Shown here piece after piece: positions 16,606 through 28,380 of a DNA stretch of 32,407 bases (its first letter is position 1; each line of letters starts with the position of its first letter). The notes under the pieces are model-generated. The model saw only the letters and a list, made by a program, of their open reading frames with translations, was not told where the DNA came from and ran no database searches. The stretch covers positions 1-32,407 of the forward strand of contig JAHCBA010000057.1 in NCBI GenBank assembly GCA_019634625.1, given 5' to 3'. This stretch comes from Verrucomicrobiia bacterium (lineage in GTDB: Bacteria; Verrucomicrobiota; Verrucomicrobiia; Limisphaerales; CAIMTB01). A program made the translations under genes and the position numbers.

Positions 16606-16664
16606 AGTACGAGTACGAGTGAGAGGACGGCTGCAAAATGCTGACATGCGGGCCCGTTGTGAGC

Positions 16665-16775
16665 GGTGCATCCCCAAGATGTCGGTGAGGAGGCAGCAAA
16701 TCGGAGGGACGAGCTCCGCGAGTCCGCGATCGATTGCACCACTCCCCTGTGGCCTCGTGGAACTCGGCCCTCCGA
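16665..16775 (+). repeat. REP-like palindromic element (family A)
   Basis: The outer arm GGTGCATCCCCAAGATGTCGG leads into the core GGAGGGACGAGCTCCGCGAG, a loop GATCGATTGCACCACTCCCC, and the returning arm CTCGTGGAACTCGGCCCTCC. About 40 bp upstream (GCTGCAAAATGC, GCGGGCCCGTTGTGAGC) are shared with the 17501 copy. The repeated unit is therefore larger than the palindrome. Confidence 0.8.
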
Positions 16776-16797
16776 ATTCACCACCCCGCTTCACCAT

Positions 16798-16921
16798 TCG
16801 GAGGGACGAGCTCTGCGAGTCCGCGATCGATTGCACCACTCCCCTGCGGCCTCGTGGAACTCGGCCCTCCGAGATGACGCCTCGCGAATGTCGCACCTCT
16901 TCCCACAACCTCGGGATGCAC
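16798..16921 (+). repeat. REP-like palindromic element (family A)
   Basis: The core and loop are almost identical to those of the preceding copy 22 bp upstream (GAGCTCTGCGAG; GATCGATTGCACC). It lacks the left outer arm but has the right outer arm, CCCACAACCTCGGGATGCAC. Together the two copies look like one long palindrome with a duplicated core. A further half outer arm (CGGTGCATCCCGAAGTTGCGG) begins at 16931. Confidence 0.8.
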
Positions 16922-16990
16922 GGGCAAACGCGGTGCATCCCGAAGTTGCGGCGAAGGGTGGGAGCTTGGGAGCTTCACCCTCCATCAGGA

Positions 16991-17055
16991 GAAACCCGGA
17001 GGGTTTCCAGCGATTAGCCGGGGGTCGGGCCCGGCTTCGCGGGTTCGACCCCCGG
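16991..17055 (+). repeat. Double-hairpin element
   Basis: The first hairpin, GAAACCC-GGA-GGGTTTC (16991-17007), is followed by CAGCGATTAG. A 10-bp stem (CCGGGGGTCG 17018-17027 / CGACCCCCGG 17046-17055) comes next. Similar 'GGGTTTCCAGCGATTAGCCGG' modules are, from memory, recurrent in related genomes. The right arm mimics a tRNA T-loop, but no tRNA folds here. Confidence 0.55.
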
Positions 17056-17223
17056 GCAACAGTCCCACCCCTCACACGACCCCGCCAAGGGGTCGCAGAA
17101 CCCACCGGTTGGAGGGCGCGGGCAGGCTCGACGGTCCCGCCTCCTGCCACACCACCGCCTGAAGACTCATTCAACTCACCCCGCAAGGTTCCCTTCCGGA
17201 CGCCCGAATTCCTTCACCCCACC

Positions 17224-17279
17224 CCACTCGCCACTCGCCACTCGCCACTCGCCACTCGCCACTCGCCACTCGCCACTTC
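17224..17279. repeat. Heptamer tandem repeat (CCACTCG)n
   Basis: Seven perfect copies of CCACTCG (17224-17272) are followed by an eighth ending in CTTC. It is a simple minisatellite in gene-free DNA. Confidence 0.9.
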
Positions 17280-17331
17280 TTACGCCCGCCCAAGCCACCC
17301 CTCGCACGACTCGTACTCAGCCCGAAGGGCG

Positions 17332-17357
17332 GTACTCGTCCTCGTCCTCGTCCTCGA
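17332..17357. repeat. Hexamer tandem repeat (CTCGTC)n
   Basis: GTACTCGTC and three further CTCGTC-type units make a short array, on the opposite strand equivalent to GACGAG/GTACGAG arrays near other family A palindromes. Confidence 0.65.
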
Positions 17358-17400
17358 ACCCGCAGGGACACCCCTTCGCGTGTTGCCTTGTGGCGGGGGC

Positions 17401-17463
17401 GAGGGGCGAGGGGCGAGGGGCGAGGGGCGGGGCGATTACGAGTACGATTACGAGTACGAGGAC
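17401..17463. repeat. Heptamer (GAGGGGC)4 followed by hexamer (GATTAC/GAGTAC) tandem repeats
   Basis: Four copies of GAGGGGC (17401-17428) run into GATTAC-GAGTAC-GATTAC-GAGTAC-GAG (17434-17463). The hexamer part abuts GCTGCAAAATGC, the shared upstream flank of the family A palindrome at 17501. The copy at 16665 has the same arrangement with GTACGAGTACGAG. Confidence 0.8.
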
Positions 17464-17500
17464 TGCTGCAAAATGCATGAGATGCGGGCCCGTTGTGAGC

Positions 17501-17663
17501 GGTGCATCCCCAAGTTGTCGGTGAGCAGGCAGCCAATCGGAGGGACGAGCTCCGCGAGTCCTCAACCCATTGCACCCCTACGCTTCGGCCTCGTGGAACT
17601 CGGCCCTCCTAAGCGCCGCCTGGCGAAGTTCGCGCCTCCTCACCCACAACGCCGGAATGCACC
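17501..17663 (+). repeat. Full-length REP/MITE-like palindromic element (family A, most complete copy)
   Basis: The ends are inverted repeats: GGTGCATCCCCAAGTTGTCGG on the left and CCACAACGCCGGAATGCACC on the right. The inner arms are GGAGGGACGAGCTCCGCGAG and CTCGTGGAACTCGGCCCTCC. The loop is TCAACCCATTGCACCCCTACGC. The whole 163-bp unit is one long imperfect palindrome without coding capacity. This copy was used to define the ends of the other, partial copies in the window. Confidence 0.8.
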
Positions 17664-17997
17664 GCGTTGGGAAAAGCACGGTTCTGGCCGCTCGCTTCCG
17701 GGACCGCGTCTCCGCCAGCGTGGGCGCCTATCAGCCCGATGGCCCCATGATGCGTTCCAGCGTCCAGGAGGTGGCACCCTCACCCATGGCTCGACCCTCC
17801 GAATCCTGGCCCTTTTCGGCGACGACACGCGACTCGTGACCGCAACCGCCGCACAAGCCACAACAAGTCGGCAGCAGGACAACGACCCGCTCATTGCCCT
17901 CAAGGCTCCAACGAGGGAACCCAGCGATCGGTGCAAGACTGCCACCCGTTGAAGCCACCCCACCCAACGAGACCGCGGCCCCCGGCGTTCGGGTGTC

Positions 17998-18011
17998 CAC
18001 GCTTCAGCGTG
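17998..18011. repeat. Short palindrome CACGCT-TC-AGCGTG
   Basis: This is a 6-bp stem with a 2-nt loop. It resembles three CACGCC-N3-GGCGTG palindromes in the element at 18559-18816 and may belong to the same small repeat class. Confidence 0.5.
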
Positions 18012-18150
18012 TCGGCGCTTGGGAAGGGAACTTCAGAATCAAGCATTGCCCGCAACCTCCAGTTCCGATCATTCATCGTCCCGTCCCAGGATCGACAGAC
18101 AGTGGCAGCAACTGGCGCGGAGCCACTGAAACAGCGGCGGCTACTCCGCG

Positions 18151-18363
18151 ATGGTGCGGATGCGACTGCACCTGAACGGCTTGAGCTTCCGTATTGCGCA
18201 GATGGGACCGGATTTCCTCCTGGTCGAGTCTCCGGCCGACCACCCACCCACCCAAGCCACCATCGAAATGCACGTGGACGGCTCCCACCGCATTTGGGAA
18301 GTGAGCCTGCCGCAGGGCATGAAAGCAGGCAATCCGCGTGTCTGCCTAAATTTGACAGAATAG
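18151..18363 (+). CDS. Small protein of unknown function, paralogue of the ORF at 19326
   Basis: The product is 70 aa. I do not recognise a named domain. The sequence looks genuine: it aligns without gaps over about 63 residues to the ORF at 19326-19526, with about 22 identities. These include an F-x3-Q-x-GPD motif, V-E, A-x-H-x-P, VD, LP-x-G and a final R-x2-L. Alternating hydrophobic residues suggest an all-beta fold, and there is no signal peptide or membrane segment. Both copies share GTGCGGATG near the 5' end, so the true start may be ATG 18151, GTG 18154 or ATG 18160. It sits on the plus strand between repeat elements upstream of the CRISPR-Cas locus. The function is unknown. Confidence 0.6.
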   Translation: MVRMRLHLNGLSFRIAQMGPDFLLVESPADHPPTQATIEMHVDGSHRIWEVSLPQGMKAGNPRVCLNLTE

Positions 18364-19325
18364 CGACCATCAACGGTCCGCCGCTTTCTTCGACTGTTTC
18401 CCAACGGACCAGCAGGTGGTGGCGAAGGCGAAGACGGGTCTTCGCTCGGGAGGGATAGGGTACCGGGGAGGGGGCGGGTTCGCCTTTGAAGTAGGTGCCG
18501 ATGGCCTCGCAGATCCTGTGAAACGGCGAACGCGACCCCATAGTGGCCATCTCCGGGGCACGCCAACGGCGTGCAAGCAATCCAGCCCAGGGCAAGCCCG
18601 CGCCAGTGGGCGTCGCCCAGGGAACAACGTCCCCACCCCGCGCAAGGCACGCCGAAGGTGTGCCGGTGGCCCCGTCCCCGCGCGATGAACGTTCGGGGTG
18701 GAACCACCCCCGCCCCTTTAGGGGCGGTTCGGGTCTGTTGTGGCGTGTCACCCAGGGCGGCGGCCCGCGGACGCGGGCCTTGCCCTGGGCTGGATTACCG
18801 GCACGCCGTTGGCGTGGGGACGGGTGTGCGAGATACCCCATCCAGGCGGGCCGACGATGGGCCCGACCCAACCCACCCACACCAGCCCACGGGGCACCCA
18901 CGATGCGCCGCCCCCGCCATGGAGCCCATTGGCCTGCTCCACGGGCAACACCCAAAAAAATTCCGATCCTCGGCGTCCCCCGCGACGCGGATCCCCGTGA
19001 ACGGTTACACGCCGGGAGATCATCCGGCCGATACCCACCCACCGGCAAAGGCGAGAACCGACACCTCTCCGCGATAAACTCCCACTCGAGGATTGCCCGG
19101 CGACGCCGTTGAGGTTACCACATCCAACCATTCCCAGGGACCGATGCAAGGAGTTCGAAGTGACCATCGGAACAAGCGAGTTCGCGGACCCGATTCGGCG
19201 GCCCATCGAAGGCCGCCCCTCCGACTGGTCCGTCTGCTCCGACACCGAAGAACTCCGGTCACGCCTCCCGAAAGGCAATGTTCCTCGGCACACTCTCCCC
19301 CGCACAGGTCTCCTCTCGGGTGCGG
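18364..19325. other. Region without supported genes between the two small paralogues
   Basis: It contains the palindrome-rich element at 18559-18816. The remaining sequence has open frames on both strands, but none shows a recognisable domain or a consistent coding signal. A run of seven A at 18953-18959 and a short frame around 19158-19300 before the second paralogue are the only other visible features. It may hold decayed genes. Confidence 0.5.
18559..18816. repeat. Palindrome-rich element with about 45-bp terminal inverted repeats (family B)
   Basis: The left end (18559-18602) and the reverse complement of the right end (18772-18816) share CACGCCAACGGCGTGC, AATCCAGCCCAGGGCAAG and CCCGCG, differing at about five positions. 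The interior holds hairpins GGGGTGG-AA-CCACCCC (18695-18710) and CCGCCCC-TTTA-GGGGCGG (18710-18727). It also holds CACGCCGAAGGTGTG (18648-18662). The ends themselves are small palindromes. It has no credible coding sequence and looks like a non-autonomous, MITE- or BIME-like element. Confidence 0.75.
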
Positions 19326-19526
19326 ATGCATCTCGAAGTGGGCGGCGTGCTGTTCCCGGTCAACCAGCTCGGACCCGACTCCGCCATCGTCGAGGCCACC
19401 GCGGCCCACTCCCCCGGCCCGGCCAGGTTGCTTGTGGCCGTGGACGACACTCTGACCGTTCGCCAAGCTTTCCTTCCCGAGGGTATCCCGCCCGGCCCCT
19501 TTCGGACTCGGCTCGCGCTGGTCTGA
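19326..19526 (+). CDS. Small protein of unknown function, paralogue of the ORF at 18151
   Basis: The product is 66 aa from the ATG at 19326; a GTG at 19320 is an alternative. It shares with the 18151 ORF the residues F-x3-Q-L-GPD, V-E, H-x-P, VD, LP-x-G and R-x-RL in the same register without gaps. It is on the same strand about 960 bp downstream and converges on the UPF0175 gene, leaving 35 bp between stops. I recognise no named family. The paired occurrence argues that both are real genes from one duplicated or repeatedly acquired family. Confidence 0.55.
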   Translation: MHLEVGGVLFPVNQLGPDSAIVEATAAHSPGPARLLVAVDDTLTVRQAFLPEGIPPGPFRTRLALV

Positions 19527-19561
19527 GGAGGGGACGGGTCCGTCCACGTGGGCCTGACCCG

Positions 19562-19819
19562 TCAAGCGCCCTTCGACGCCCAAGCCAGATCCGTATCCAA
19601 CTCGGCCATGTCGTAGGGGCGCACCACGTGGCGCTTCGCGAGCAACGCCTCGAATGCACGACGACCGATTCCGGCCATTTCAACCGCCTTGCCGAGGGAC
19701 AACACCTCGCGGGCGTAAAGGCCGACAGCAAGTTCCTTCATCAGTTCGGCCGTGACCTCCTGCCGTGGAAGGCGCATCGCCGTCACGACTTCTTCGGAAA
19801 TCTCAAGGGTCAACGACAT
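19562..19819 (-). CDS. UPF0175 family protein (putative antitoxin)
   Basis: The product is 85 aa beginning MSLTLEISEEVV. The mid-region ELAVGLYAREVLSLGKAVEMAGIGRRAFEALL is the UPF0175 (COG2886) signature: a helix, a K/R-x-A-E-x-AG helix-turn-helix-like stretch, then a C-terminal tail. Length is normal for the family. Members are usually encoded just upstream of a DUF3368 PIN-like toxin and are thought to act as antitoxins. Here the DNA downstream on the minus strand is occupied by the opposing small ORF, and no PIN-like gene is visible within the window. It looks like an orphan. A toxin elsewhere or lost is possible. Confidence 0.8.
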   Translation of the reverse strand: MSLTLEISEEVVTAMRLPRQEVTAELMKELAVGLYAREVLSLGKAVEMAGIGRRAFEALLAKRHVVRPYDMAELDTDLAWASKGA

Positions 19820-20281
19820 GCGAGAAGGCTAGCCGTCTTGCTTGGCACGCGGTAGACTGCTGGACAAGGAAGGGCCAGATCAACCACTTTCAACTTCGGT
19901 CCTCGCTCCTACCATTTTTTTGGGGTCCGACGAGGCTTCGATTCAGCAAGCGGAATAGGAACCCGATTCGGGTTTTGGCTGGGCGCCCTTTCGCCCTGTT
20001 TCCATTGCAGTTCGACGAGGAGCCAGGTACATAAGACGATCCTGATGCTTGGCGAATGTCAGCATGCGAAACTCGCTACCAAAGATCCCAAGGGGCGCAT
20101 TGTGATAAGTCACGCTCCGCTTCAAAGGTTGGCCACTTCCAAACGTGCTGAATCCGAGCAAATGCCACACTGGGAATGGAGTTTCGTCCCTATTCTTCAT
20201 CCGCTTGGACCACGGTTGTCCATCCCAAGGAGCCATACTTTCCCGTGAGGGGCCATGGGAACGCTCGATTCAGAGGGAAGA
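19820..20281. other. Intergenic region upstream of the cas operon
   Basis: This stretch is visibly less GC-rich than its neighbours and should contain the cas operon promoter, although I cannot identify a convincing -35/-10 pair. A T7 run at 19915-19921 has no hairpin in front of it. A minus-strand 97-codon frame (19943-20236) is listed separately as doubtful. The composition change may mark a junction of the acquired CRISPR-Cas island. Confidence 0.5.
19943..20236 (-). CDS. Doubtful 97-aa ORF divergent from cas3
   Basis: The ATG at 20236 opens a frame beginning MAPWDGQPWSKRMKNRD, with a central SVTYHNAPLGIFGSEF. No domain is recognised. It is the longest open frame in the gap before cas3 and has mixed composition not typical of the high-GC shadow frames. 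However, it lacks a clear ribosome binding site and has no identifiable homologue that I can name. It could equally be leader or regulatory DNA. Confidence 0.2.
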   Translation of the reverse strand: MAPWDGQPWSKRMKNRDETPFPVWHLLGFSTFGSGQPLKRSVTYHNAPLGIFGSEFRMLTFAKHQDRLMYLAPRRTAMETGRKGAQPKPESGSYSAC

Positions 20282-22540
20282 ATGGACTACTACGCGCACA
20301 CAGCCCAAGGGCCGGATGGCGGGCCGGACAAGGACCGGTCGAGATGGCAGCGGCTGCGGGACCATTTGGTGAACGTCGCCCGCATTGCCAGGCATTTCGC
20401 CGATCCGCTAGGACTGGCCGACGAAGCAGAGTTGGTCGGGCTGCTGCATGATCTGGGGAAATACCGCGACGAGTTCCAAGCCTACCTGCGAGGTGAACGG
20501 GGTAGTAGTGTCGAGACGCAGCATGCCATTTATGGTGCTGCTTGGGCGCTTGAACCGCATCAGCAGCTCGGGACGATGCTCTGTGTTGCCGGACATCACG
20601 CTGGAATTCACGACATGGCTGACGCGCAAGCAGCGGCGTCTAAGGCATGGGTTACGCAGGCGGTCTGCAAGTTGGTTGCCCGTCTTGAATCCGAGGTGGG
20701 GCCGCTGCCACGGCCACCGGGTATTCCAGCGTTTGTCGAATCCGCCAGCGAACCGACGTTCGCCGCCGAGATCTACGTGCGAATGCTCTTCTCCTGCCTC
20801 GTGGATGCGGATCGGCTCGACACTGCCTTCTGGCCAGCCGGGCCGACACCGGATGTGCCGCTGGACGCCGAGATCCTGCTTGGCAGGGTTGTCTGTGAGC
20901 GGGATCGGAAGCGGGAGGCCAACCTGGACAGCCCATTGGGCCTGCTCCGCAATCGCATCTTTGATGCCTGTCTCGAGGCGGGTTGCCAGACCCAGGGCTT
21001 CTTCTCCCTCACCGTGCCCACAGGCGGCGGCAAGACGCTTTCGGGGATGGCCTTCGCGTTAGCTCACGCCAAGGCATGTGGGCTTCGGCGCGTCATCGTC
21101 GTCATTCCCTACTTATCCATCATTGAGCAAAACGCCGCCGAGTACCGGCGTATCCTGGGCGACGGCGTGGTGCTGGAGAATCACTCTAACGCCTCTCCAA
21201 GACCCGATACGGATGAGGAGGAGAAGGACCGGCTCGACTTGGTATCCGAAAACTGGGACGCACCCGTGATCGTCACCACGTCCGTCCAGTTTCTCGAATC
21301 CTTGTTCGCCTCCAGTCCCTCAAAATGTCGGAAGCTCCACCGCATCGCCCGCTCGGTCGTCATCTTCGACGAGGTCCAGACGCTGCCCACGCACCTGCTC
21401 AAGCCCATGTTCAGCGTGTTCCGCGAACTGGTCCGCAGCTATGGCGTTAGCTTCGTCTTCAGCTCCGCCACTCAGCCAGCGTTCCGCAAATCATTGGCGT
21501 TGCCCGATGGATTTGCACCGGAGGAACTTCGCGAAATCGCCCCGGATCCCGCAGAACTCTTCCGCCGGTTGCGGCGCGTGACCTATCACCTACCCAGACA
21601 GGGCGAAGCGCTCGACTGGCCGCAACTGGCCGCACGAATCGCCGAGCAACCGCAGGCGCTGTGCGTCGTCAATCTCACCCGGCACGCCAAGGAGCTTTGG
21701 GAACAGGTGAAACGCCTGTTGCCCGACGGCGAATGCCCGATCCACCTCTCCTCCGCCATGTGCCCGGCGCATCGGCTGGCGTTGATTGAAACAATACGAG
21801 GACGCCTTCGCGGAGGGATGCCTTGCCGCGTCGTCTCCACCCAGCTAATCGAGGCCGGTGTGGATGTGGACTTCCCGGTGGTCTGGCGGGCAATGGGGCC
21901 GCTTGATTCCGTCGTTCAGGTCGCCGGCCGATGCAACCGCGAAGGACGACATGCCGTCGGTGAAGTGCATGTGTTCCGGCCGGGGGATCACAAGCTGCCA
22001 CCCGGTGTCTATCGCGCAGCCTCCGATCAGGCAGTCATCACGATGGATCAGTTGGGCGAGCCGGCAGCTGCTTCTGAAAGGCTTTCAACCGATCCGAACG
22101 TGTTCCGAGGCTACTTCGATTCCCTGTATCAAGTGGTGAACACCGACCACGCGAGACGTGGGGAGTCCACCATCCAGCAGGACCGCGAACAACTCCGCTT
22201 CCGTGAGGTTTCTCGCAAGGCCAAGGTCATCGAAGACTCCGGCCAGCCAGTGATTATCGCCGCGGACAATCACGGTCGGAAGTTCGCCGCCGATCTGATT
22301 GCCGACATTCGCGACCGACAGCCGGCCCACCGCCAACCGCGCTTCACCCGCGACGATCTCCGCGCCCTTCAGCGCTACATGGTCAACGTCCACCACCACC
22401 GTTTTCAACAGCTCGAGTCCATGAAGCACCTCCGCCCCTTGCTCCCCAACTTCGAGCTCCACGTCCTCGCGGACGGGTTTTACCATCCCGACCTCGGCCT
22501 CCTGGTCGAGAACCGGCCGCTCGACGATTTCATCGCATGA
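20282..22540 (+). CDS. cas3: CRISPR-associated helicase/nuclease Cas3 (type I-C)
   Basis: The product is 752 aa. The N-terminal HD nuclease domain has H-LVNVA, the HD pair in LLHDLGKYRDEF and the later AGHHAGIHD. The SF2 helicase follows: Walker A PTGGGKT (about residue 247), a DEVQ box at about 363 (FDEVQTLP, the form usual in I-C), motif III SSAT and motif VI QVAGRCNREG. Cas3 is recruited by Cascade and unwinds and degrades target DNA. I favour ATG 20282 (MDYYAHT, with AGAGGGAAG just upstream) because I-C Cas3 proteins start close to a YYAH-type strand. ATG 20255 would add nine residues. It is the first gene of the cas operon, and its stop overlaps cas5 (ATGA). Confidence 0.95.
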   Translation: MDYYAHTAQGPDGGPDKDRSRWQRLRDHLVNVARIARHFADPLGLADEAELVGLLHDLGKYRDEFQAYLRGERGSSVETQHAIYGAAWALEPHQQLGTMLCVAGHHAGIHDMADAQAAASKAWVTQAVCKLVARLESEVGPLPRPPGIPAFVESASEPTFAAEIYVRMLFSCLVDADRLDTAFWPAGPTPDVPLDAEILLGRVVCERDRKREANLDSPLGLLRNRIFDACLEAGCQTQGFFSLTVPTGGGKTLSGMAFALAHAKACGLRRVIVVIPYLSIIEQNAAEYRRILGDGVVLENHSNASPRPDTDEEEKDRLDLVSENWDAPVIVTTSVQFLESLFASSPSKCRKLHRIARSVVIFDEVQTLPTHLLKPMFSVFRELVRSYGVSFVFSSATQPAFRKSLALPDGFAPEELREIAPDPAELFRRLRRVTYHLPRQGEALDWPQLAARIAEQPQALCVVNLTRHAKELWEQVKRLLPDGECPIHLSSAMCPAHRLALIETIRGRLRGGMPCRVVSTQLIEAGVDVDFPVVWRAMGPLDSVVQVAGRCNREGRHAVGEVHVFRPGDHKLPPGVYRAASDQAVITMDQLGEPAAASERLSTDPNVFRGYFDSLYQVVNTDHARRGESTIQQDREQLRFREVSRKAKVIEDSGQPVIIAADNHGRKFAADLIADIRDRQPAHRQPRFTRDDLRALQRYMVNVHHHRFQQLESMKHLRPLLPNFELHVLADGFYHPDLGLLVENRPLDDFIA

Positions 22541-23415
22541 AAACACCCGGCACCATCACCCTCCGCGTCTGGGGCGACTTCGCCTGCTTCACCCGTCCCG
22601 AGATGAAGGTCGAGCGCGTCAGCTACCCGGTCATGACGCCCTCCGCCGCGCGCGGCATCCTGGAAGCCGTCTTTTGGGAACCGCAGATGTTTTACCTCAT
22701 CGACTCCATCCGCGTGGTGAAACGGGGTCGGTGGATCTCCTTCCGGCGGAATGAAGTCACCAAGGTCATTAGTCTCGACAGCGCGAGGACCTGGATGCAC
22801 TCGCCCGAGAAAACCTCGCCCATTCTGGCAGGTGGCGGCGCGGACGACGGCACCCAGCGGAACATGCTGGCCCTGGAAGACGTGGAATATCTTGTCACCG
22901 CCGAGGTCCGCACCACGCCGCTGGCCGACCGGGCCGAGGACAAGCGGGAGAAGTATCTGGCCGAGATCGAACGCCGCGCCTGCGCCGGCAAGTGCTTCCA
23001 CCGTCCCGGCCTCGGCATGAGGGAATTCACCGCCGACTTCGAGTGGGAGGACGATGCCGACACCGCCCTGCAACGTCGCCACGCCGAACTGGGACAGGCA
23101 AACGCACCGATCACCGAAGACCTCGGCCTTATGCTCTACGACGTCTTCGACCATCGCGAACGTGCCCACGGTTTCCGCTGGCTCCGCGGCGAGGAAGTCG
23201 CTGCCCGCGATCGCGAGTTCGAGTCCTCGCTGGCGGGAATGAAGAAGGGCGAACAGAACATTCGCCGGAAGGAATACACCGCCAATCCCACGCGCTGGAC
23301 GCGCCGGCCCATCAAACCCCAGCCCGCCTTCTTCCACGCCCGGATTGAGAAATCCCGCCTCGACTGCCATCCCGACCGCATTCGCATCCTGACCACCCCC
23401 TCCGGAGGCAACTGA
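22537..23415 (+). CDS. cas5c: Cas5c (Cas5d), crRNA-processing Cascade subunit of type I-C
   Basis: The product is 292 aa. The N-terminal RAMP fold shows the I-C signature WGDFACFTRPEMKVERVSYP and TPSAARGILEAVFW, then RRNEV and a CFHRPGLGMREF loop. In type I-C, Cas5c replaces Cas6 and cuts pre-crRNA in the repeat. Aligning by eye from memory to B. halodurans Cas5d (catalytic Tyr46, Lys116, His117), the equivalent positions appear to be F46, K139 and Y140, so the active site may differ. The protein is about 50 residues longer than usual, mainly a basic segment between LRGEEVAARDRE and PAFFHARI. It overlaps cas3 by 4 bp and is 2 bp before cas8c. Confidence 0.93.
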   Translation: MKTPGTITLRVWGDFACFTRPEMKVERVSYPVMTPSAARGILEAVFWEPQMFYLIDSIRVVKRGRWISFRRNEVTKVISLDSARTWMHSPEKTSPILAGGGADDGTQRNMLALEDVEYLVTAEVRTTPLADRAEDKREKYLAEIERRACAGKCFHRPGLGMREFTADFEWEDDADTALQRRHAELGQANAPITEDLGLMLYDVFDHRERAHGFRWLRGEEVAARDREFESSLAGMKKGEQNIRRKEYTANPTRWTRRPIKPQPAFFHARIEKSRLDCHPDRIRILTTPSGGN

Positions 23416-23417
23416 CC

Positions 23418-25328
23418 ATGCTGCTCAAGCATCTCTACGAATTCGCCCAGTCCCGGAAGCTGCTGGATGACCTGGCCTTTTCGCCCAAAGCCGTGCGCTG
23501 GATCCTAGAGCTCGACGCGTCCGGGCAACTGCGCGGCGGTGGTCCGCAGATGACCGGGGATGACAAACGCGGTAAGGAGTTCATCTGTCCACAAACCACG
23601 CGCCCTAAGGTCGTGGGCGGCGTATCTGAGTTCCTCGCCGACGGGCTTACAGCCGTCTTCGGACTGGATCCCGATCCCGATGCACCGATGCCAGAAGCCA
23701 AGCGGGCCAGCCGCGACACGAACAACGCAGCCAAGGAAGCGGACTTCTGGCGGCAGATCGAGGATGCAGCCAAAGATTCGGCCCATCCCGGTCTTCAGGC
23801 GCTCATGGCCTTTCGAGATAGCCTTCCCGGTCTCATTCCGCAGCTTCTCCGCTGGGGAACTGCGCCAGATGCCAAGTCGGGAGCCAAGTGCGCCTGGTGG
23901 TTGCGCACGGCCAACGGTGACGAGGCGCGCCTTGGACCGGAGAATTTCACCTTCCGTGTCTCCGGTGAACTGCTGCTGGAAAACGAGACGATTCGTCAGT
24001 TCTGGCGCGGGCAACACGCGCGGGAAGTGGACGATGCGCGGAGCGGATACAGTCGCGGACTGTGCCTGGTGTCGGCGCGGGAAAACCAGCCGCTTGCGCC
24101 CACCCACAATCCCAAGATCAAGGGCGTTCCCAACACCCAGTCGTTCGGTGCGGCCATCGTCTCATTCGACAAACCCGCCTTCGGCTCCTACGGCTTCGAT
24201 CAAAGTCTGAACGCGCCGACTTCGGAAGAAGCCGCCACGGCCTACTGCGTCGCGCTGAACTGGATGCTCGGACAGGACGAGCATTCGTCGCGGCTGGGAC
24301 AGACGAGTTTCTGCTTCTGGGCCCGTGAAACCGCGGCGGCTGGAAGCCTTTTCGCCAGATTGCTCAACCGGCCTGATTCCCAATCCGTCGCTCAGTTCCT
24401 CAAATCGCCTTGGTCCGGCATCCAGCGTGAGTTGGCCCGAAAGGACGAGTTCTTCGCCGTCACGCTGGCCGGTAACTCCGGTCGGATCGTCGTGCGTCAC
24501 TGGCTCCAGGAGCCGCTTGATCAAGCCATCGAGCATTTCCACCACTGGTTCGCCGACCTTGAACTCAAGGTTCCCCAAAGACCTACCTCCAAGGGCAGCA
24601 AGAAGGCGACTGCGTCGGGCAAGAAGACCGAGTACCATCCGCTGTCCGCCTACTGGCTGGCTTGCACCACAGTCCGCGAGGCGAAGGATCTCGCGCCCGA
24701 CGTGCCCGCCCAGCTCTACCGCGCGGCGCTTGAAGGCACAGCCCCGTCTGCTTCCCTGATCAAACCCATCCTCGACCAACTGCACTCCAAACTCGTCCGC
24801 GATGAAGACTACCAGCTCCTCTACGACCAGAGCCGATTCGCACTGCTCAAACTCATCCTCAACCGCAACCGCAACCACGCCGACATGGAAATAGGACCTG
24901 AACTCACTGCCGACACCGATGACGCCGCCTACAACTGCGGCCGGCTGCTCGCCATTCTCTCCGCCACCCAAAGCAAAGCGCACGAGTACAAGCTGGAAGG
25001 TTCGGGCGTAGCGGAACGCTACTTCGGCACAGCGTCCGTCTCACCGGCCAGCGTATTCCCGCTGCTGCTGCGCCTGAACCGGCATCACCTGAACAAGATC
25101 AGAAAATCCGAACGTTTCGGCGGCCACGAGCGCTTCATCGAGGAGCAGATGCAGGGCGTTCTCGCGCTGTTCAAGCCGGCCGAGCCCGGTCTGCCGCCGG
25201 TCTTTCCACGCACCCTGGACCTTCAGGCCCAGGGCCGGTTTGCCCTCGGATTCTACCAGCAGCAGGCTGCCGAAGCCGCGGCCCGGCAGGCAGCCCGCGG
25301 GCAACAAAGCAATTCCGAATCCCAATGA
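23418..25328 (+). CDS. cas8c: Cas8c (Csd1), large subunit of type I-C Cascade
   Basis: The product is 636 aa, starting MLLKHLYEFAQSRKLLDD. Csd1 hallmarks include CAWWLRTANGDE and the central VSFDKPAFGSYGFDQSLNAP followed by YCVALNWMLGQD. A helical C-terminal region carries YNCGRLLAILSATQ and FPLLLRLNRHHLNKI. Cas8c recognises the PAM and helps Cas3 recruitment. The C-terminal quarter corresponds to the small subunit Cas11c, which in studied I-C systems is also made from an internal start (see the entry at 24885). The ATG is 2 bp after the cas5c stop. A 31-bp gap follows before cas7c, the longest within the operon. Confidence 0.95.
   Translation: MLLKHLYEFAQSRKLLDDLAFSPKAVRWILELDASGQLRGGGPQMTGDDKRGKEFICPQTTRPKVVGGVSEFLADGLTAVFGLDPDPDAPMPEAKRASRDTNNAAKEADFWRQIEDAAKDSAHPGLQALMAFRDSLPGLIPQLLRWGTAPDAKSGAKCAWWLRTANGDEARLGPENFTFRVSGELLLENETIRQFWRGQHAREVDDARSGYSRGLCLVSARENQPLAPTHNPKIKGVPNTQSFGAAIVSFDKPAFGSYGFDQSLNAPTSEEAATAYCVALNWMLGQDEHSSRLGQTSFCFWARETAAAGSLFARLLNRPDSQSVAQFLKSPWSGIQRELARKDEFFAVTLAGNSGRIVVRHWLQEPLDQAIEHFHHWFADLELKVPQRPTSKGSKKATASGKKTEYHPLSAYWLACTTVREAKDLAPDVPAQLYRAALEGTAPSASLIKPILDQLHSKLVRDEDYQLLYDQSRFALLKLILNRNRNHADMEIGPELTADTDDAAYNCGRLLAILSATQSKAHEYKLEGSGVAERYFGTASVSPASVFPLLLRLNRHHLNKIRKSERFGGHERFIEEQMQGVLALFKPAEPGLPPVFPRTLDLQAQGRFALGFYQQQAAEAAARQAARGQQSNSESQ
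24885..25328 (+). CDS. cas11c: Putative Cas11c small subunit from internal in-frame start in cas8c
   Basis: An in-frame ATG at 24885 (Cas8c residue 490) would give a 147-aa protein starting MEIGPELTADTDDAAYN, immediately before the GRLLAIL helix. Type I-C, I-B and I-D systems are known to translate Cas11 separately from an internal site at about this place in the cas8 or cas10d gene. The conserved methionine before the x-YN-GRL helix fits that pattern. No clear Shine-Dalgarno sequence precedes it (the upstream bases are AACCGC/AACCACG repeats), so initiation would have to be weak-SD or SD-independent. Inferred from family knowledge. Confidence 0.45.
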   Translation: MEIGPELTADTDDAAYNCGRLLAILSATQSKAHEYKLEGSGVAERYFGTASVSPASVFPLLLRLNRHHLNKIRKSERFGGHERFIEEQMQGVLALFKPAEPGLPPVFPRTLDLQAQGRFALGFYQQQAAEAAARQAARGQQSNSESQ

Positions 25329-25359
25329 CCCACACAGAACCTCGTTATCTCCCTTTATC

Positions 25360-26328
25360 ATGAGCAACAACATCCTCACGAATCGCCACGACTTCCTCCT
25401 GCTGTTCGAGGTCACCAACGGCAACCCCAACGGCGATCCCGATGCCGGTAACCTGCCGCGCCTCGATCCCAACACTAATCGCGGCATCGTCTCCGATGTT
25501 TGCCTCAAGCGGAAGGTGCGCAACATGGTCGAACTTTTCCCGCCGGCCCGCGAAAGCGGGGCGGCCAACGGCTTCAACATCCTGATCAAGCAGGGCGCGG
25601 TTATCGAGCGCGCCCAGCAGGACGCCATCATGGGCGCAAAGGATGAAGGCTCCATAGCCGGTGGCTCGCACGCCGAAAGGGCCAAGAACTGGCTCTGCCG
25701 CGAATTCTTCGACGTTCGCACCTTCGGCGGCGTCCTCTCCACTGGCGACGACGTTATGAAGGGATCGGCCTTCGGCCAAGTGCGAGGCCCCGTCCAGTTC
25801 ACCTTCGGCCAGTCCTTCCATCCCATCACTCCGCTGGAGGTGACCATCACCCGTTGCGCCGTGACCAAGGCCGAAGATGCCAAGAAGGAGCGGACCATGG
25901 GCAACAAACACATTGTTCCCTACGCCCTCTATGCTGCCAAAGGCTACGTCTCGCCCGCGTTCGCCGAGAAGACCGGCTTCACCGAAGCCGACTTGGAACT
26001 CCTCTTCCAATCCCTCCTCAACATGTTCGAGCACGATCGTTCCGCCGCGCGGGGCGAGATGATCGTGCGCGGGCTCTATGACTTCGAACACTGTGGCACC
26101 CAGCACCCGAACAACGCCGAGCAAAACCGGCGCGAGGCCCGCCTCGGCTGCGCCCACGCCCACAAGCTCATCGAAGGCATCAAAGTCACACTCAAAGACG
26201 GCAAGACCTTCCCCGAATCCTTCGCGGACTACGACGTGAACTGCGATTGGACCGAGGCCAATCTACCGAGAGGCATCAAGCTCCATCTCCGCCACGACGG
26301 AGCCACCGTCGGGCCCAAGCAAGGTTAA
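25360..26328 (+). CDS. cas7c: Cas7c (Csd2), backbone subunit of type I-C Cascade
   Basis: The product is 322 aa starting MSNNILTNRHDFLLLFEV. The Csd2/Cas7 signature NGNPNGDPDAGNLPR follows at once, with SDVCLKRKVRN next. The central FDVRTFGGVLS, GPVQFTFGQSF and the C-terminal GLYDFEHCGTQHPNNAEQ are typical of the family. Several copies coat the crRNA spacer to form the Cascade backbone. The ATG at 25360 is chosen because family members begin at this strand; an upstream frame overlapping cas8c is an extension without similarity. The cas4 start follows 1 bp after the stop. Confidence 0.95.
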   Translation: MSNNILTNRHDFLLLFEVTNGNPNGDPDAGNLPRLDPNTNRGIVSDVCLKRKVRNMVELFPPARESGAANGFNILIKQGAVIERAQQDAIMGAKDEGSIAGGSHAERAKNWLCREFFDVRTFGGVLSTGDDVMKGSAFGQVRGPVQFTFGQSFHPITPLEVTITRCAVTKAEDAKKERTMGNKHIVPYALYAAKGYVSPAFAEKTGFTEADLELLFQSLLNMFEHDRSAARGEMIVRGLYDFEHCGTQHPNNAEQNRREARLGCAHAHKLIEGIKVTLKDGKTFPESFADYDVNCDWTEANLPRGIKLHLRHDGATVGPKQG

Positions 26329-26329
26329 C

Positions 26330-26977
26330 GTGGCGGAGTTGCCGCCAGTTCCGGCGTTGCCCGAAGGAGAGCGCGAGAGGATCCCGCTCTCCGCTCTCAA
26401 CCAATATCTGTTTTGCCCTCGCCGTGCCGCCCTCATCCACGTCCAGGGCATCTTCACGGACAATCAGCACACCCTGCGCGGCGACATCGTCCACGAACAC
26501 GCCGACCTTGCCGGTTACGAGGTGGTCAAGGGAGTCACCTTGCTCCGGGCGCTAACCGTATGGACCGAGCGGCTGGGTCTGAACGGTAGGTGCGACATCG
26601 TTGAGCAACGGGCCGATGGCTCGATGTTCCCTGTCGAGTTCAAGCTTGGCAAGCGGCGGCGATGGGAAAACGACGACGTACAGCTCTGCGCCCAGGCGAT
26701 CTGCCTGGAGGAAATGTTCGGAATCGCCGTTCCGCGCGGCGCAATCTTCCATGCCGACAGCAAACGCCGCCGGGAGGTAGAGTTCTCACCGGAGCTTCGC
26801 GCCAGAACCGAGGAAACTGCCCGGCAGTTGCACAAGCTTCTGCGGGAGGAGCGGACTCCGCCCGCCGTCTACAAGGAAGCCTGCGAAGAGTGTTCGCTCT
26901 ATCCAACCTGCCTGCCCAAAGCCACCGGCGACCGGAGCCACGCACTTCGCTTGGCAAAACAACTGTTCCAGATCTGA
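26330..26977 (+). CDS. cas4: Cas4 exonuclease, spacer acquisition
   Basis: The product is 215 aa from a GTG start 1 bp after cas7c. It has the RecB-like nuclease motifs: H55 (VHEH), D89 (GRCDIVE), and E103 and K105 in PVEFKLGK. The four cysteines of the iron-sulfur cluster are C29 (FCPRR) and C185, C188 and C194 (CEECSLYPTC). Cas4 trims pre-spacers and fixes PAM orientation together with Cas1-Cas2. In I-C systems it lies between cas7 and cas1, as here. Motifs are complete, so the protein should be functional. Confidence 0.95.
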   Translation: MAELPPVPALPEGERERIPLSALNQYLFCPRRAALIHVQGIFTDNQHTLRGDIVHEHADLAGYEVVKGVTLLRALTVWTERLGLNGRCDIVEQRADGSMFPVEFKLGKRRRWENDDVQLCAQAICLEEMFGIAVPRGAIFHADSKRRREVEFSPELRARTEETARQLHKLLREERTPPAVYKEACEECSLYPTCLPKATGDRSHALRLAKQLFQI

Positions 26978-26990
26978 ATCGTCCTTGCCC

Positions 26991-28076
26991 GTGGATGCCA
27001 TCCAACAGAACACCCTCTTTCTGACCACGCCGGGAACCTATGTGGCCCGTGACCATCTCACGCTGCAGGTTGAGGTGCCCATCTATCCCGACGATCTCCC
27101 ACCGGAGCAACGCGCCAAGGACACCGCCACTGGCCAGCGCAAAGTTGCCATCCCAATTCACCACCTCGAATCTATCTGCGTCTTCGGCCTGGCCACCATA
27201 AGTCCGCCCGCGCTCGACCTGTGTTGGGAAAACGGCGTGGCCGTGAACTACCTCAACGAGTGGGGTCGCCTGCACGCCCGATTGACCGGCGTGGCCGACA
27301 CCAGCGTGATCCTGCGCCGCGCCCAATTCCGCGCGGCCGACGATCCATCCAGGTGCACCGCCATCTCGAGGCAGATCATCGCAGGCAAGCTCCAGAACAG
27401 CCGAAACAGCCTCCTCCGCGCCGCCAGAGAGACCACGGACCTCGGCGACAAGGAACGCCTCGACGCCGTCACTGACGCCTTGGGCCGCCAGATCCGCGAC
27501 CTTCCCGAGTTGGACATGGTAGATTCATTGCGCGGGTCGGAGGGCATTGCCGCCAGCCTCTATTTTATGGTCTTGGCCCTCACCTTGAAACAGCAACGCG
27601 AGGACTTCGCCTTCAAGAGCCGTAGCCGGCGGCCGCCACGGGACCGCATCAATTGCCTCCTCAGCTTTCTCTATGCTCTGGTCCGCCATGATTGCATCGC
27701 TGCGCTCACCGTTGTCGGTCTGGATCCCTTCGTCGGATTTCTCCATGTGGAACGCCCCAACCGACCTTCGCTAGCGCTCGATCTTATGGAGGAGTTTCGC
27801 CCGTGGCTCGCCGACCGACTAGCCATAACGCTCATCAACCGGCAACAACTGGGACCTGCAGATTTCAACGAACGCGAAGGGGGCGCGGTTGAACTCACTG
27901 AGGCAGGTCGCAAACGGGTGATCAAGGCCTACCAAGAACGGAAACAAGAGACACTCCACCATCCGTTGCTCGACCAGAACCTCCGCATTGCCCAACTTCC
28001 CTTCATTCAGGCGCGCGTCCTCGCCCGTCATCTCCGAGGTGACCTGACCGACTACGTGCCGTTTGTTCCGAAATAA
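26991..28076 (+). CDS. cas1: Cas1 integrase of type I-C
   Basis: The product is 361 aa, beginning MDAIQQNTLFLTTPGTYV, which matches the usual NTLY-TTPG start of I-C Cas1. The metal-binding active site is complete: E184 in RGSEGIAAS, H252 in FLHVERP and E267/E268 in DLMEEFRPW. Cas1 with Cas2 inserts new spacers at the leader end. Start choice is between GTG 26991 and TTG 26985; the GTG is preferred because its spacing from the cas4 stop (13 bp) equals that between cas1 and cas2. The C-terminus ends DYVPFVPK. Confidence 0.95.
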   Translation: MDAIQQNTLFLTTPGTYVARDHLTLQVEVPIYPDDLPPEQRAKDTATGQRKVAIPIHHLESICVFGLATISPPALDLCWENGVAVNYLNEWGRLHARLTGVADTSVILRRAQFRAADDPSRCTAISRQIIAGKLQNSRNSLLRAARETTDLGDKERLDAVTDALGRQIRDLPELDMVDSLRGSEGIAASLYFMVLALTLKQQREDFAFKSRSRRPPRDRINCLLSFLYALVRHDCIAALTVVGLDPFVGFLHVERPNRPSLALDLMEEFRPWLADRLAITLINRQQLGPADFNEREGGAVELTEAGRKRVIKAYQERKQETLHHPLLDQNLRIAQLPFIQARVLARHLRGDLTDYVPFVPK

Positions 28077-28089
28077 CCGCCGCACCTCC

Positions 28090-28380
28090 ATGCTGATTCT
28101 CGTCACCTACGACGTGGCCACCGTGGACACCTCCGGAAAGCGTAGGCTGCGCCGTGTTGCCCAAGCCTGTGAGGACTACGGTGTGCGGGTACAGAAAAGC
28201 GTGTTCGAATGCCAGGTCGGGCAGAAGGAATGGGTGCTACTGCGAAACCGGCTACTGACTGAGATCAAGGCAGACGAGGACTCGCTCCGCTTTTACTTCT
28301 TGGACGAGAAGGCCGTACAACGCACCGAGCACCACGGCGTGGACAAGCCAATCAACCTGAGCGAACCGCTCATCCTATGA
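28090..28380 (+). CDS. cas2: Cas2 adaptation protein
   Basis: The product is 96 aa beginning MLILVTYDVATVD with the conserved D8 of the ferredoxin-like fold. It ends DKPINLSEPLIL, with the VQKSVFEC strand in the middle. It is of normal length for I-C Cas2. The ATG at 28090 lies at the first beta strand; upstream in-frame codons overlap cas1 and are not needed. It dimerises and bridges two Cas1 dimers in the integration complex. It is the last cas gene, and 190 bp of leader separate it from the array. Confidence 0.95.
   Translation: MLILVTYDVATVDTSGKRRLRRVAQACEDYGVRVQKSVFECQVGQKEWVLLRNRLLTEIKADEDSLRFYFLDEKAVQRTEHHGVDKPINLSEPLIL

Follow-up and report, generated by a model that had tools for sequence, protein, structure and literature searches.

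The window (the whole 32,407-nt stretch of DNA analysed here) carries two small ORFs, P1 and P2, separated by a palindrome-rich element and followed by a UPF0175 gene and a complete type I-C CRISPR-Cas system that comprises cas3, cas5c, cas8c, cas7, cas4, cas1, cas2 and a long array. The true start of cas7 probably lies further inside the ORF as listed, since the profile match begins only well within it (Table 1). GC-rich direct repeats were also observed at 16642–17612, with 135-nt copies at 16642 and 17478 that are 90% alike, together with short tandem repeats at 17214–17284.

Table 1. Genes and other features of the window discussed in the text.
Feature	Coordinates	Strand	Basis
Recognisable counterpart of the family's GGHSA segment (N-terminal), as GGYSA, directly behind an in-frame TGA	18130..18150	+	family profile match through 1 TGA
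P1, solo member of subfamily A (70 aa, small, beta-rich), shortened N-terminus	18151..18363	+	P1-alone search, best relative E 2.0e-18
Palindrome-rich element between P1 and P2, 41-nt arms, 90% complementary	18559..18816
P2, 82 aa (most likely start), subfamily B, small beta-rich protein, solo	19278..19526	+	subfamily comparison, tree
UPF0175 gene (85 aa) in the P2–cas3 interval	19562..19819	-
cas3, best model Cas3c	20255..22540	+	PDLC01765, E 7.5e-198
cas5c	22537..23415	+	profile match
cas8c (csd1)	23418..25328	+	profile match
cas7 (csd2), ORF as listed	25240..26328	+	profile match from residue 48
cas4	26330..26977	+	profile match
cas1	26985..28076	+	profile match
cas2	28063..28380	+	profile match
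CRISPR array, one 20-mer x54, 55-90 nt spacing, reaching the contig end	28571..32404		repeat scan

A sequence-only reading of the window had aligned P1 and P2 without gaps, with about 22 identities over 63 residues. Both ORFs exist and the likeness is real: the best ungapped alignment has 25 identities at 69 positions and a BLOSUM62 score of 109, as against a highest score of 41 in 2000 shuffles. When the whole of the genome was searched with P1, P2 was the sole other significant match (E = 7.5e-8, 37% identity), and the match ranked after it had E = 0.58. The same reading had started P2 at the inner ATG at 19326, giving 66 aa, but the ATG at 19278 is most likely the start, because relatives in subfamily B (see below) also have their N-terminus there. 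In the P1 frame, NSGGYSA, the counterpart of the relatives' GGHSA segment, comes immediately after the in-frame TGA, so that P1 must begin at the inner ATG at 18151 and is an N-terminally shortened family member.

Judged from these and the following comparisons, P1 and P2 are members of a real, new family of ~82-aa proteins. Searches with P1 alone gave matches in 10 of 97 related genomes including its own (nine of the 96 others), and a family profile of 26 rows, P1 and P2 among them, found 45 matches in 36 of the 293 genomes of the order, own genome counted; against this profile, which itself includes them, P1 and P2 have E-values of 5.3e-32 and 1.5e-26. The family was found in four of 387 genomes of a phylum-wide sample, again counting the window's own, and a pattern-based scan covering 84,980 species, each represented by a single genome, yielded 23 loci, 20 under Verrucomicrobiota names and three under 'bacterium' only. 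The family could not be assigned in the sequence-only reading, and library searches agree: Pfam has no match for P1, P2 or 12 aligned family members and PADLOC none for the small protein, while NCBIfam gave chance-level matches only (E = 0.09 and 0.11, each for a single one of 12 members), PHROGs one chance-level match (E = 0.041, one of 26 members), and a sequence search of solved structures with the small family a best E of 0.083. In the titles and abstract openings of open-licence literature, no naming of the small protein or of the kinase partner described below was found, and the main text of PMC8565338 contains neither 'kinase' nor 'Rhodopirellula'.

A tree of 22 rows, from which four partial rows were left out, places P1 in subfamily A and P2 in subfamily B with a split supported at 100/99, P2 grouping (93/80) with L034, a locus of the congener G003. 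P1 and P2 are therefore paralogous, as had been proposed, in the deep sense of representing two old subfamilies, whereas their origin by local tandem duplication is ruled out by that split. Selection at the protein level, which had been read from the conservation of the two ORFs, is borne out by pN being lower than pS in every one of the 297 pairs, drawn from 25 sequences, that have 40 or more codons in common; an absence of homologues together with a dN/dS ratio near 1, which had been named as the outcome contrary to selection, is thus not what the 96 other genomes and these pairs revealed. The dN/dS comparison of P1 with P2 that had been proposed says little by itself, since synonymous sites are near saturation at a pS of 0.55 (pN 0.44), whereas the comparison of P2 with its own subfamily is clear (pS 0.55–0.71, pN 0.20–0.26). 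In subfamily A, the N-terminal segment (mean pN 0.340, pS 0.645) is about as constrained as the body (pN 0.298, pS 0.607), an observation in favour of the upstream start and, with it, of the overlap with the kinase start described below. For L029 and L031, both with broken kinases, the small-gene dN/dS is 0.19, a constraint that may predate the kinase breaks. The Gly and Asp of the motif Q-[ML]-G-P-D-F are the sole invariant columns in the 26 rows, and exceptions to the motif occur in L007, with Gly for the Asp, and in P2, with Ser for the Phe.

In the relatives, the small gene is adjoined on the opposite strand by a gene for a ~164-aa kinase-like protein, and the L019 kinase matches positions 2–162 of the 162 in the PADLOC ST_Kinase model PDLC01137 (E = 6.9e-53). 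Searching with PDLC01137 found the kinase in 26 of the 293 genomes of the order, 25 of which also have the small gene (11 have the small gene only and 256 neither; Fisher p = 1.4e-26), and the one kinase-only exception, in G213, is a 213-nt fragment with a stop. Outside the order, kinase and small-gene searches converge on the same three of 386 genomes, in one of which (G509) the kinase is present only as a fragment with a stop. What is new is that the small protein is the near-constant partner of a kinase already in PADLOC. The pair is encoded head to head: in 16 of 22 rows the two start codons overlap as CATG, and in the four rows of B-type pairs the overlap is 20 nt, the remaining two rows being the two L019 copies. 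All 12 aligned kinases and four divergent ones stop right after the catalytic loop. As modelled, the partner would be a mini-kinase that has an N-lobe and catalytic loop but neither the metal-binding motif nor the remainder of the C-lobe, and it may be a pseudokinase. In the window's genome PDLC01137 has no match, the best E in a genome search for the kinase was 0.63, and no kinase was found within the window; the usual partner is this divergent gene, absent here and so out of reach of the sequence-only reading. Transport of either gene as mobile cargo was rejected: the small protein was not found in plasmid records or, by pattern-based scan, in viral contigs, nor the kinase in plasmids, phages or, by the same kind of scan, viral contigs.

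The kinase side is readable for 21 of 22 small genes (L024, too near a contig end, was left out), and its frame is unbroken in 12 and broken or deleted in nine. One of the 12 unbroken, the first L019 copy, has no usual start codon and carries Asn for the conserved Lys and the catalytic-loop Asp. Just the two ends of the kinase remain in L017, 3.5 kb separates the small gene from the main kinase piece in G281, and a frameshift near residue 82 interrupts the B-type kinase of L029 and that of contig C236 of G269, which are probably one record. In the order-wide search, the only kinase sequences that lack an accompanying small gene are remnants, namely that in G213 and a second G191 copy without the start of the N-lobe. 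Broken or partial small genes also occur (one with a TAA in G101 C294, and partial matches in G101 C96, G139 and G155), and none was observed beside an unbroken kinase. The tally is 17 kinase losses beside a small gene versus none of the reverse (p = 0.001 at a 2:1 length ratio), the pattern to be expected if carrying the kinase without the small gene has a cost and the reverse does not; the greater length of the kinase and errors in metagenome-assembled genomes account for part of the pattern. The window's genome is the extreme case, with two small genes of different subfamilies and no kinase.

Placement relative to cas genes was examined by a Cas3 C-terminal domain search of 37 genomes, the strongest 35 Cas3 matches being paired with small genes. 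Of the 45 small genes, 14 (in 10 of 36 genomes) are followed by a cas3 on their own strand at a distance of no more than 6 kb, compared to 0.02 expected. Among these strongest 35 matches only one other is that close, 4.4 kb upstream of a small gene in G191, and that gene has a downstream cas3 too. The remaining 31 small genes, some of them on short contigs, have no strong cas3 match within 6 kb downstream in the available sequence; a tblastn search brings in two more genomes, G050 and G170, the latter with broken pieces of cas genes flanking the pair. Type I-G genes occur within ~3 kb downstream at seven of the 23 scan loci (L014, L018, L019, L024, L028, L033 and L034), and I-G cas genes lie downstream of the small gene in all three genomes outside the order. 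The adjacency to cas genes is therefore recurrent and exceeds chance, in line with the setting of an accessory module beside CRISPR-Cas that the sequence-only reading had suggested. The systems of the relatives, where typed, are mostly I-G, as against I-C in the window, and several other small genes adjoin housekeeping genes (DnaN, chaperonin, PFOR) or DUF genes. A simple 20-mer scan within 20 kb at 30 relative loci revealed no CRISPR array.

The palindrome-rich element was considered as part of the module and rejected as a component; it looks incidental, there being no match to it at any of 30 relative loci. The UPF0175 gene is an occasional neighbour, occurring at two of 30 relative loci; at one of these, L118 (G509; L118 9037–9930), it takes up the position it has in the window, on the opposite strand in the interval from small gene to cas genes. 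Since it adjoins there a 163-aa ORF that we take to resemble a PIN-domain toxin, the UPF0175 protein of the window may by analogy be an orphan antitoxin. Several other neighbours were observed. At L019 10317–10850 and L117 6709–7773, the small gene and the cas genes are separated by phage-type regulator genes (ORF6N, BRO-N); at L031 1003–9065 a B-type small gene is directly followed by two large helicases resembling Druantia DruE and DpdE/DrmD; and a helix-turn-helix and IrrE-like peptidase gene, with RmrA and capP as best PADLOC matches, is found near the small gene at L120 7260–8381 (G138). Pieces resembling the Cas3 N-terminus lie at the kinase side of some pairs (L019 9133–9408, L123 9124–9828 and, by eye, L095 1998–2639), as might result from duplication or insertion of modules or of cas3 at these places.

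The L015 small protein was modelled with six strands (pLDDT 86.3) and a low-confidence start. With this model, eight of the first 15 Foldseek rows are PilZ by title and five more are, we presume, PilZ proteins, making 13 of 15, the best E being 0.012 and none below 0.001. VIA aligned it with PilZ 4rt0 over 67 residues (Z = 6.9, rmsd 3.0 Å), but a VgrG-effector chain scored Z = 6.8 and Hcp proteins 5.1–5.4, none reaching 8, so the barrel match is not unique to PilZ. PilZ membership by sequence was rejected, with an hhalign probability of 0.5% against 12 PilZ domains and no PF07238 match for P1, P2 or 12 members. The c-di-GMP motifs of PilZ domains, RxxxR and [DN]xSxxG, are not conserved in the small family, occurring in three and one of the 26 rows respectively. 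The model thus suggests a protein that is PilZ-like in fold only. For the kinase model (pLDDT 93.5), the best Foldseek match was CK2 (E = 5.7e-4), and VIA gave a tie at the top (Z 8–10) between CDKL1 (Z = 8.6), CLK1 (Z = 8.2), the RIO kinase Rio2 (1tqi; Z = 8.2, rmsd 3.8, 126 aligned) and APH(2'')-IVa (4n57; Z = 8.1, rmsd 2.9, 122 aligned). The part aligned to Rio2 stops at Rio2 residue 228, beyond which the metal-binding Asp of Rio2 presumably lies. A sequence search of solved structures with the kinase gave a non-kinase as best match (E = 0.061), with kinases from E = 0.11.

Our preferred reading, held tentatively and at rather less than even confidence, is that the small protein binds the kinase and controls or neutralises it, the window ORFs being solo members of the family. 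In relatives the small protein is usually one half of a two-gene module, the other half being the divergently encoded mini-kinase, and the module is often directly in front of the cas3 of a type I CRISPR-Cas system. The small protein would restrain or direct the kinase like an antitoxin or an adaptor, and the kinase would act only once infection or the CRISPR system released it. With the kinase gone, the two small genes of the window would be left as orphan neutralisers or be retained for a further function at the cas operon.

In an alternative that we consider doubtful but plausible enough to weigh, the small protein works for the Cas machinery directly, for instance in cas3 expression or adaptation, with the kinase as its switch, and would go on serving the cas operon after kinase loss. 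The polarity of the arrangement, with cas3 downstream of 14 small genes and one other cas3 nearby, points to it, as do the retention in the window of two small genes, with no kinase, next to an I-C system that is complete and has a long array, and the PADLOC description that lists the kinase with a putative adaptation module beside I-C systems; many small genes, however, lie away from cas genes in the available sequence, and the predicted fold gives no hint of DNA binding. Control of the kinase and a role at the cas operon are not mutually exclusive.

That P1 and P2 are no more than the decaying remains of a lost module, with no present function, is unlikely. At least one of them may be decaying, since P1 has lost its N-terminus to the in-frame TGA, and the genome has no kinase. 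Promoter and terminator scans gave nothing exceeding shuffles, and a sigma-70-type promoter scan of 17900–20300 gave no match, which says little with just 0.4 expected by chance. Against such decay, both frames are open across the folded core, P2 shows the low pN relative to pS of its subfamily, and the part missing from P1 is poorly predicted in a relative anyway (mean pLDDT 47, residues 1–10). Very improbable, finally, is a split active site in which the Q-[ML]-G-P-D-F motif of the barrel protein supplies in trans the metal-binding Asp that the truncated kinase lacks, for although the 12 aligned kinases and the four divergent ones end after the catalytic loop, the PADLOC model has the same short length and the motif Gly and Asp stand out as invariant, the barrel is unlike a kinase C-lobe and L007 and P2 depart from the motif at the Asp and the Phe. 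Just as slim are the prospects of its extension to a two-part kinase switch in CRISPR loci, with overlapping starts and a kinase completed or gated by the GPDF Asp, that would control type I immunity.

On the preferred reading of a small protein that controls its kinase, the family is a candidate control part for bacterial immunity. The small protein is nameless in the libraries searched, and we found no described role for its kinase partner; with a partner known, this CRISPR-listed kinase can be assayed alone and together with the small protein, for its activity, its toxicity and any influence on CRISPR. The divergent, overlapping starts further raise the question of how two genes with no spacer between them are transcribed and translated.

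Four known systems invite comparison. The PilZ domain, a c-di-GMP receptor, accounts for most of the top Foldseek rows of the small-protein model, but the family differs in sequence and motifs as described above. RIO, CMGC and APH kinases have folds that match the kinase model, and differ in that the partner has nothing beyond the catalytic loop, neither the metal-binding motif nor the remaining C-lobe. Type II toxin-antitoxin modules are alike in having adjacent genes, one of which often persists without the other; such pairs are normally co-directional, whereas the small gene and kinase are divergent with overlapping starts and thus form no co-directional operon. The fourth is PDLC01137 itself, described in PADLOC as 'Serine/Threonine Kinase present with a putative adaptation module operon next to I-C systems in Rhodopirellula species'. 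Across nearly its whole length this model is matched by the partner gene, and both are linked to type I CRISPR, although the link here is mainly to I-G, that to I-C in Rhodopirellula being known from the PADLOC description alone.
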